From NCBI GenBank assembly GCA_034439735.1, contig JAWXAX010000024.1, forward strand, positions 1-49,910: 49,910 nucleotides of DNA, in the 5' to 3' direction. Below the pieces are notes generated by a model. That model made no database searches. It was not told the DNA's origin and saw nothing but the letters and a program-made list of their open reading frames with translations. Positions 41,390-43,915 of this stretch are shown in pieces. The translations under genes and the position numbers were made by a program. Position 1 is the first letter of the stretch. Each line of letters opens with the position of its first letter. Source of the stretch: Rhodothermales bacterium. Lineage in GTDB: Bacteria; Bacteroidota; Rhodothermia; Rhodothermales; JAHQVL01.

Positions 41390-42595
41390 TTACGGCAGAT
41401 ACACCAGCCGGCGCGCCTCCCCGTTGCGCCCCCGGATCAGGTAGATCCCGGAGGGGAGTCCGGCCGGAGCAAAGCTGAATACGTGCCGGCCCGCCGGCAG
41501 CGTCGCGTCGGCAATGACGGCGACTTCGCGGCCGAGCACGTCGTACACGGCAAGCCGCACCGGGCCGGCGACGGACAGGGTGACGGCGATGGATGTCGTG
41601 GCCGAGAAGGGATTCGGGTACGGCGCGTCCAGCGATGCGGTTAGCGCCCGGCCGGCGTGCTCCACGGCCGTGGCCGAGGGGGGCACCAGGCGCGTGGCCA
41701 CGGGGAGATGGTCGGAGGTCGTGTTCTCGTAGAGGATGAACACGGAAGGGAGTTCCGTCACCACCTGTGTCGCCCCGTCCGTGGTCCAGCCAAAGAGTTC
41801 GTCGGTGACGATAAGGTGATCGATCATCGAACCCGTCGCGGTGCAGTTGGCGTTGTCGCAGAACGAGCCCCCGCCGGCCAACTCGATAGGCCGCGATACC
41901 ACCCGGTAGTCGGCCGTGTTTTCGACGAAGTTGGTATACGGCGAGGCCCGGCCGGCCGTGATCGAACCATCCATCTCATCGTTGAAGTCCCCGAGGATCA
42001 CCACGGGCTTCGACGCCAGGCTCGTAAAGTCGATATGGTTCTTGAGTCGACGCGCCGCCTCGACGCGCCGTTCGTAGCTGTCGACATCGGAAAACGCCTT
42101 CATGTGGACGACGATGAAGGTCACGACGACGGTGGTGTCCGGCAGGAGGACGTCCGCTTCGAGCTGGAGGGGAGGGCGGCTGGCGAAGGGCGTCTCGAAG
42201 TCCTCCAGGATATGCCGCACCGAGCGGAGGCGGATCACGCGGGTGTCGTAGATAAACCCGATGCGCTGGGAGACCGAGTTGGTGGCGAGCCGGCCATCGA
42301 AGTTCGGCCCCAGGGCGGAGACCAGGGCCGCGAAGTCGTCCGGGTCTGCGATCTCCTGGACGCCCCAGAGGTCGATCCCCAGGCCGGCGATGACGGCGCG
42401 CACGTTCTCAAGCTGTGTAGCATTGTTAGATGGGCCGTTATTGGAATCGCCAAACCACTCTATATTCCAGGTAGCCACATCCAGGGCGCCGGGGGAGCCG
42501 AGGAGGGGGATGCCCTGGGCGCGGGTGAGCCCCGCCGGCGCGAATACGAGGACCAGCCACAGAGCGTGAAAGCGGGGGAGCCCGGAGCGCGTCAT
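41390..42595 (-). CDS. Secreted endonuclease/exonuclease/phosphatase family protein with C-terminal sorting module
   Basis: 401 aa with a signal peptide (ALWLVLVFAPAGLTRAQ). The DNase I-like metal-dependent domain (about 35-310) shows LDVATWNIEWFG, GVQEIADPDDF, VVHMKAFSD, VVILGDFNDEMDG and TTSDHLPVATR, so all four catalytic blocks are intact. Activity could be extracellular nuclease or phosphodiesterase. A Por-type module closes the protein: SLDAPYPNPFSATTSIAVTL, YDVLGREV, LPSGIYLIRGRNG. The start ATG overlaps the stop codon of the remnant gene upstream as ATGA, so it was originally coupled to that gene. Confidence 0.9.
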   Translation of the reverse strand: MTRSGLPRFHALWLVLVFAPAGLTRAQGIPLLGSPGALDVATWNIEWFGDSNNGPSNNATQLENVRAVIAGLGIDLWGVQEIADPDDFAALVSALGPNFDGRLATNSVSQRIGFIYDTRVIRLRSVRHILEDFETPFASRPPLQLEADVLLPDTTVVVTFIVVHMKAFSDVDSYERRVEAARRLKNHIDFTSLASKPVVILGDFNDEMDGSITAGRASPYTNFVENTADYRVVSRPIELAGGGSFCDNANCTATGSMIDHLIVTDELFGWTTDGATQVVTELPSVFILYENTTSDHLPVATRLVPPSATAVEHAGRALTASLDAPYPNPFSATTSIAVTLSVAGPVRLAVYDVLGREVAVIADATLPAGRHVFSFAPAGLPSGIYLIRGRNGEARRLVYLP

Positions 42596-42934
42596 TCGAA
42601 GTCCGTGTTGAGTTTAAAGCGCGAGATCCGGTTGTTGCCCGTGTCGGCGACGTACACGACGCGGTCGAAGTACGCGACGCCGTTCGGATTGCGGAACTGG
42701 AGGGCGCCGATCCAGTTGCCGTTGGAGGTCCGCCCGTCCGTTCGAAGACGCGTCTGGAAATCAGCTACCGCTTGGTCGTATTCCGTTATTGTACTGCCCG
42801 ATGAACCCGGCATTGGTAACCGTGAGCCCCATGTTGCCCACATCCACCACAACGTCCTCGTACGCCGCGCCTTGCCCGAAAACCGGAATGACGAGGACGA
42901 GACATACGACGCCGGCGACAGCCAGAAAGCGCAT
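42592..42934 (-). pseudogene. Remnant of an exported NHL-repeat protein
   Basis: ATG 42934 opens a clear signal peptide (MRFLAVAGVVCLVLVIPVFGQ) followed by DVVVDVGNMGLTVTNAGFIGQYNN, then a stop after 57 codons at about 42761. In another frame, overlapping from about 42790, the sequence continues with ITEYDQAVADFQTRL and one NHL-type repeat (ALQFRNPNGVAYFDRVVYVADTGNNRISRFKL), ending at 42592. The 343-bp span is one base over a multiple of three. An internal deletion and frame change in a once much longer gene explains both halves. The end overlaps the nuclease-family start by ATGA. Confidence 0.7.
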
Positions 42935-43138
42935 GGTGGGGGACGATCGATGTTTCGGAGGAAAGGCGCGTCGACGCGCGCACAAAAAGGGTAAAATGGT
43001 CGGCCACAATATAGAATGCAGGTAGTCAGAATGCCCGGGTAAATAATTGTTACCAGGAACCATCGTTGTAACCAGACGTGCCCACCACATCCCTGCCCCG
43101 GCGGTTTATCGCGGCCTCATCGCCACCCCACGTCGTCT

Positions 43139-43915
43139 ATGCCCATCGACACCGCGCGTCCTCGCTACGTCCTTCGCTTCCTGTGGATGATGGCCCTTTT
43201 CGGCCCCGCGGCTTGCTCGACGCCGCCGGACACAACCACTGAATCCGGCGCTGAATCCCCCACCGAACAGGCCGTTTATGTAACCGGCCCCCCCGCATTG
43301 CCGGAAGGAAGCGGCAAACTGTACCTGGGCCGCGAGATCGCTCAGATGGGGGATACGCCGGATGTCACGGAGTGGCTCGAGCGACCCGGGCGCGAAGCCG
43401 AGGAGTTTCCCTCCCGCCTCATCCAGGCCCTTGAACTGGCGCCGACGGATGTCGTGGCCGATATCGGCGCCGGCACGGGGTATTTCACCTTTCGGATGGC
43501 CCGCCTCGTCACCGAGGGCAAGGTGTTCGCGGTGGATATCCAGCCGGCCATGCTCGAACATATCCGCAACCGGATGGCCGAAGAAGGGGTGGTCAACATC
43601 GAAACGGTGCCCGGTTCGTTCACCAGCCCCAACCTTCCACCCGCCAGCGTGGACCTCGCGCTGGTCGTCGTCTCCTACCACGAGTTCTCCCACCCCCGCG
43701 AAATGATGCAGAGCATCGTCCGTAGCCTCAAAGTCGGCGGCCGCTTTGTGCTTGTCGAATACCGCGGCGAAGACGCCACCGTGCCCGTTAGCGCCGTCCG
43801 ACGCATGACCGAGGCCCAGGCCGTCAAGGAGATGCGCGCCGTCGGCCTCCGCTGGCGTGAAACCAAAAATATCCTCCCCCAACAACATTTTATGGTGTTC
43901 GAAAAGCCGGATTGA
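43139..43915 (+). CDS. Class I SAM-dependent methyltransferase with lipoprotein signal
   Basis: 258 aa. The N-terminus reads as a lipoprotein leader (VLRFLWMMALFGPAAC, C26) and a Thr/Glu/Pro linker. The remainder is a complete class I methyltransferase: SAM loop VADIGAGTGYFTF, acidic end of strand two in VFAVDIQ, ALVVVSYHEFSHPREMMQSIVRSLKVGGRFVLVEYRGED. SAM is cytoplasmic, so an exported enzyme is puzzling. The leader may instead be an uncleaved inner-membrane anchor, or the true start may lie further in. Closest in look to UbiE/arsenite-type methyltransferases; substrate unknown. Confidence 0.85.
   Translation: MPIDTARPRYVLRFLWMMALFGPAACSTPPDTTTESGAESPTEQAVYVTGPPALPEGSGKLYLGREIAQMGDTPDVTEWLERPGREAEEFPSRLIQALELAPTDVVADIGAGTGYFTFRMARLVTEGKVFAVDIQPAMLEHIRNRMAEEGVVNIETVPGSFTSPNLPPASVDLALVVVSYHEFSHPREMMQSIVRSLKVGGRFVLVEYRGEDATVPVSAVRRMTEAQAVKEMRAVGLRWRETKNILPQQHFMVFEKPD

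Follow-up and report, generated by a model that had tools for sequence, protein, structure and literature searches.

Comparison of a 49,910-base stretch of DNA (the window, which is the whole of contig C24 of the source genome) with related genomes indicated that a scar of 343 bases, at 42592-42934 on the minus strand, is what a large deletion left of a seven-gene cell-surface/secretion operon; we give this reading a probability of roughly 0.83. Two deletions would have been involved, one of ~0.8 kb within the first gene (g1) and one of ~10 kb that starts in g1 and runs to the end of the sixth gene (g6). They would have left three remnants immediately ahead of an intact seventh gene (g7), which encodes an EEP-family protein: the start region of g1, 28-30 codons of its interior and ~38 codons of g6. 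No complete protein could be made from any of g1 to g6, and expression of the EEP gene would now proceed through a short leader that follows the upstream region of the former operon.

The EEP protein was matched in 58 of the 114 genomes of the order, the source genome included, and the genes of G030, a genome of the same family, served as the reference for the loci of all 57 other EEP-bearing genomes. The gene order was g1, g2, g3, g4, g5, g6, g7 (EEP), as follows.

g1: secreted protein, ~730 aa, first gene.
g2: ~730 aa, with a T9SS tail.
g3: ~550 aa.
g4: TonB-dependent receptor, ~975 aa, with CarboxypepD_reg and Plug.
g5: PorV/PorQ-family protein, ~340 aa, with a PorV_fam match.
g6: NHL protein, ~430 aa (389-435 aa at full length in 37 relatives).
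g7: protein of the EEP family (nuclease/phosphatase) that ends in a T9SS tail; in the window it has 401 aa and lies at 41390..42595, minus strand (PF03372, TIGR04183).

Genes g1 to g6 were all found in order upstream of the EEP gene in 22 of the 57 relatives, g1 being truncated at the edge of the compared sequence in three of these. The first-pass annotation had proposed a search of related genomes for an intact NHL gene ahead of the nuclease-family gene, and such a gene was found in 43 of the 57, where g6 ended directly before EEP. The other 14 were G082, with g6 ending 2.7 kb before EEP, ten genomes with no g6 in at least 3 kb upstream, and three in which a contig end lay within 330 bases of EEP. 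On contig C414 of G082 a gene resembling phosphoenolpyruvate carboxylase (identified by eye in translation) was observed between g6 and EEP. A second end of g6, frame-broken, stood immediately ahead of EEP there, as though an insertion had been accompanied by a partial duplication. At G057:C92 2344-4535 the g1 ortholog appeared as two overlapping matches with an internal TAG, which may represent a broken copy or a sequencing error.

Gene sets that combine a TonB-dependent receptor, a PorV/PorQ-family protein and T9SS-tailed proteins occur in the Bacteroidota/Rhodothermota. The intact operon resembles these outer-membrane gene sets in all three components, the T9SS tails being those of g2 and g7; it differs from them in that its receptor is not a standard SusC (67.7 bits versus a SusC/RagA cut-off of 368). 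A literature search found no paper that joined Rhodothermus, TonB-dependent and PorV.

The scar and its neighbour were resolved into the following features.

42797..42934, minus strand: scrap 1, the g1 start codon, a signal-peptide-like segment and the first ~46 codons (g1 profile).
42780..42797, minus strand: junction A (approximate), an internal g1 deletion of ~0.8 kb with the frame changed (ends of two g1 profile matches, translation).
42706..42795, minus strand: scrap 2, g1 interior, profile positions ~331-362, TEYDQAVADFQTRLRTDGRTSNGNWIG (g1 profile).
42700..42712, minus strand: junction B (approximate), a deletion of ~10 kb from the g1 interior to the g6 end, in frame (overlapping g1 and g6 profile matches, G030 gene coordinates).
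42592..42711, minus strand: scrap 3, the final ~38 codons of g6 (NHL protein) and the stop codon (g6 profile, PF01436).
43139..43915, plus strand: divergent methyltransferase gene (PF13649, 1.3e-17).

The profiles were built from near-full orthologs (at least 85% coverage; 19 for g1 and 37 for g6, from the 57 loci). Scrap 1, in the first frame, matched positions 9-58 of the g1 profile with an E-value of 2.5e-13 (search space of 5 fragments) and was 48% identical to g1 of G030; against the g6 profile it gave an E-value of only 0.29. Scrap 2, in the second frame, matched the g1 profile at 9.7e-9 (search space of 5 fragments) and resembled the RLRTDGQ..GNWIG of intact relatives. Scrap 3 matched the last 39 positions of the g6 profile at 2.4e-22 (search space of 5 fragments) and was 77% identical to g6 of G030. 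The pieces of the scar are more than chance resemblances, since profiles of the relatives match three separate pieces. As judged by these matches, the 343 bases are three colinear scraps of the first and sixth genes of the operon, on the same strand and in the ancestral order. In several relatives, for example G030, G019, G034, G020, G026 and G080, the methyltransferase gene flanks the operon on its left, in synteny and divergent from g1, and it has been kept in the window.

At the level of letters and frames, the earlier description of the scar was accurate: the signal-peptide-like start, the frame change, the single NHL repeat and the ATGA overlap with the EEP gene were all present. An ATG at 42934 on the minus strand starts the first frame, MRFLAVAGVVCLVLVIPVFGQ..., which is signal-peptide-like by eye and which on translation reaches a TGA at 42761-42763, 166 bases ahead of the EEP start. 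The frame changes near 42780-42797. In the second frame, one NHL repeat scores higher than the Pfam cut-off (PF01436, 29.9 bits versus 20); this frame ends in a TGA at 42592-42594, which overlaps the EEP ATG (42593-42595) as ATGA at 42592-42595. The earliest start codon in the list of open reading frames for this NHL frame (42592-42852) was a TTG at 42852. No promoter or terminator was found in a scan of 42590-43140; the scan relied on the sigma-70 consensus, a poor guide to promoters of the Bacteroidota type.

In total, two deletions account for about 11 kb of missing sequence, their sizes being taken from G030, in which the corresponding interval spans ~11.4 kb; the breakpoints were bounded by protein profiles rather than by parental DNA, and their positions are thus approximate. 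The remainder of g1, the whole of g2 to g5 and ~90% of g6 were lost at junction B. The scar shares with bacterial deletions formed between short direct repeats the loss of internal sequence and the fusion of the ends, and it differs from those known scars in having two deletions side by side. Across 38 aa, the mean identity of the g6 scrap to 38 others was 0.78, inside the span of intact copies (0.74-0.85), and its differences fell mostly at third codon positions. It is without visible decay; therefore the loss was recent on that scale, or the scar is an artefact. We infer a fairly recent deletion in a living genome in which the EEP gene would still be expressed.

An artefact of this type would arise if the ends of the operon had been mis-joined during assembly and the ~11-kb middle left out of the bin. 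The source genome (5.13 Mb, 98.1% complete) is a draft assembly of 304 contigs and the sole genome of its genus, with no close relative for comparison, and a similar join was observed in another genome, G039, less than 200 bases from a contig end. Mis-joining nevertheless appears distinctly unlikely: the two junctions lie ~80 bases apart and are colinear and on the same strand, the contig runs for ~7 kb past the scar on one side and for more than 40 kb on the other, and five of the missing genes are absent from the assembly. When g6 was sought in the assembly, the scrap was the sole match, and a search for g1 returned the scrap and C-terminal paralogs at 25-41% identity only. No ortholog of g5 or g4 was found there (best matches 33% and 29% identical, respectively), and no g2 body was seen among the matches listed, which contained the sorting tail only. 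Relocation of the operon was considered as well and was unsupported, since orthologs of the five genes sought (g1, g2, g4, g5 and g6) were absent elsewhere in the assembly; a stray copy beyond the assembly is possible, because completeness is 98.1%. On contigs C166, C204, C242 and C18, paralogous sets were observed in which receptor, g1-like and PorV-like genes lie close together, and these sets may make loss of the operon tolerable.

The same operon was truly deleted in a genome assembled into two contigs, which also counts against mis-assembly. Seven genomes of a distant genus (g24) were compared, in five of which (G035, G037, G038, G040 and G041) g1, g6 and EEP were all present. In G036 (2 contigs, 99% complete) there was no EEP at an E-value of 1e-30 and no g6 at 1e-5, and only paralogs of g1 were detected. 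The G036 flanks, 95-98% identical to G037 beside the site, were joined where G037 has bases 357,485-370,127, a clean excision of ~12.6 kb that extends from just before g1 to the last EEP codons. Within G036:C1 350001-370000 the junction was located near 366073, with a few unmatched bases. In G039 (G039:C100 1-4169) the g1 N-terminus, to residue 69, was joined in frame to g5 at residue ~115. That junction, around base 185-199, lies at a ~14-bp direct repeat, as in direct-repeat deletion scars, and the repeat is present at both sites in the intact G037. Orthologs of g2 and g4 were not seen elsewhere in the G039 genome (92% complete). G039 is the weaker evidence, because its junction lies so near a contig end and because of this completeness.

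In the window, the EEP gene looks intact. The protein matched PF03372 (6.4e-12, 46.1 bits, cut-off 24.5) and carried a type A sorting domain at its C-terminus (TIGR04183, 30.4 bits versus a cut-off of 23); its score against Pfam PF18962, 23.4, was below the cut-off of 27. In an alignment with 56 of the 57 relatives, 35 of 36 near-invariant columns agreed. Residues N44, E81, H164, D203, N205, D295 and H296 were retained; the N, QE, H, GDFND and SDH motifs are those that we take to be the EEP active-site residues. A search by sequence for relatives with solved structures returned none at an E-value of 0.01. Given this conservation, the gene probably still yields a functional secreted enzyme.

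The overlap of the g6 stop with the EEP start had been read in the first-pass annotation as a sign that the two proteins once worked together, for which the relatives offered weak support. The spacing from the g6 stop to possible EEP starts was measured in 32 of the 57 loci, the other 25 giving no value because a motif was not found, the flank was short or g6 was missing. A possible EEP ATG lay in an ATGA overlap in eight of the 32 and a GTG in a GTGA overlap in two more, with starts at other distances in the remainder. A conserved coupling of g6 to EEP was thus unsupported, the ATGA overlap not being kept across relatives. Elsewhere the EEP gene was located shortly ahead of g1, at the opposite end of the operon (G045 and G046), on a separate contig from g6 (G031) or ~0.8 Mb away from it (G047), arrangements which argue that EEP belongs with the operon at large and not with the NHL protein alone. 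By gene position, EEP travels with the whole operon in most relatives and not with g6 in particular.

Termination-reinitiation at ATGA overlaps is a known form of translational coupling (PMC6728339, PMC10666635). As far as those accounts describe such systems, the window is like them in the overlap of the g6 stop with the EEP start and unlike them in that the overlap is not conserved and the upstream frame has no gene start of its own. The retention of the g1 start and of the ATGA overlap, with a g6 scrap that is not visibly degraded, could suggest that selection maintains the scar, whether for a short secreted peptide that it encodes or for its role as a translated leader feeding ribosomes into the EEP gene. 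We regard selection of this type as very improbable, since the first frame stops well before EEP, the earliest start listed for the NHL frame is its TTG, a short gene of such a kind was present in no relative examined, and a recent origin accounts equally well for the missing decay.

That a frame change or a sequencing error has disrupted a single NHL gene which is still coupled to EEP, as had been proposed from the repeat, the frame change and the overlap, has next to no chance of being correct, because the N-terminal part of the scar matches g1 and not g6 and because about 390 of ~430 g6 residues are missing, only the last ~38-43 being left where a complete g6-type protein has ~390-435 aa. 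The proposal that a broken NHL gene lies ahead of the nuclease-family gene held up, that gene being intact in relatives; the assignment of the N-terminal fragment to the same gene did not. Nor is the presence of one NHL repeat in itself a sign of decay, as the intact, 431-aa g6 of G030 also has one Pfam NHL match only. An error at about 42760-42790 would not explain a loss of ~11 kb, and frame repair at junction A would not restore an NHL gene, because the two frames hold scraps of two genes.

Under the deletion reading, the operon appears, from comparison of these genomes, to have been lost three times and in different ways, in the window, in G039 and in G036, with EEP kept in two of the three. 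Three genomes with three different breakpoints suggest that the operon is dispensable at times. It is conceivable, though doubtful, that repeated, independent deletions of the operon in the Rhodothermales reflect an occasional cost of carrying it, for instance if phage or bacteriocins enter the cell by way of it; no paper joining a TonB-dependent receptor, phage resistance and a large deletion in Bacteroidota-type bacteria was found in the literature. These results correct the annotation of a region that would otherwise pass for the pseudogene of a single NHL protein. The deletion scar itself is ordinary but informative, the recurrent loss of the operon being its one interesting aspect. The scar draws attention to an uncharacterised surface/secretion operon of seven genes that is conserved in the Rhodothermales, and the apparent recurrent loss of this operon makes its conditional value testable.
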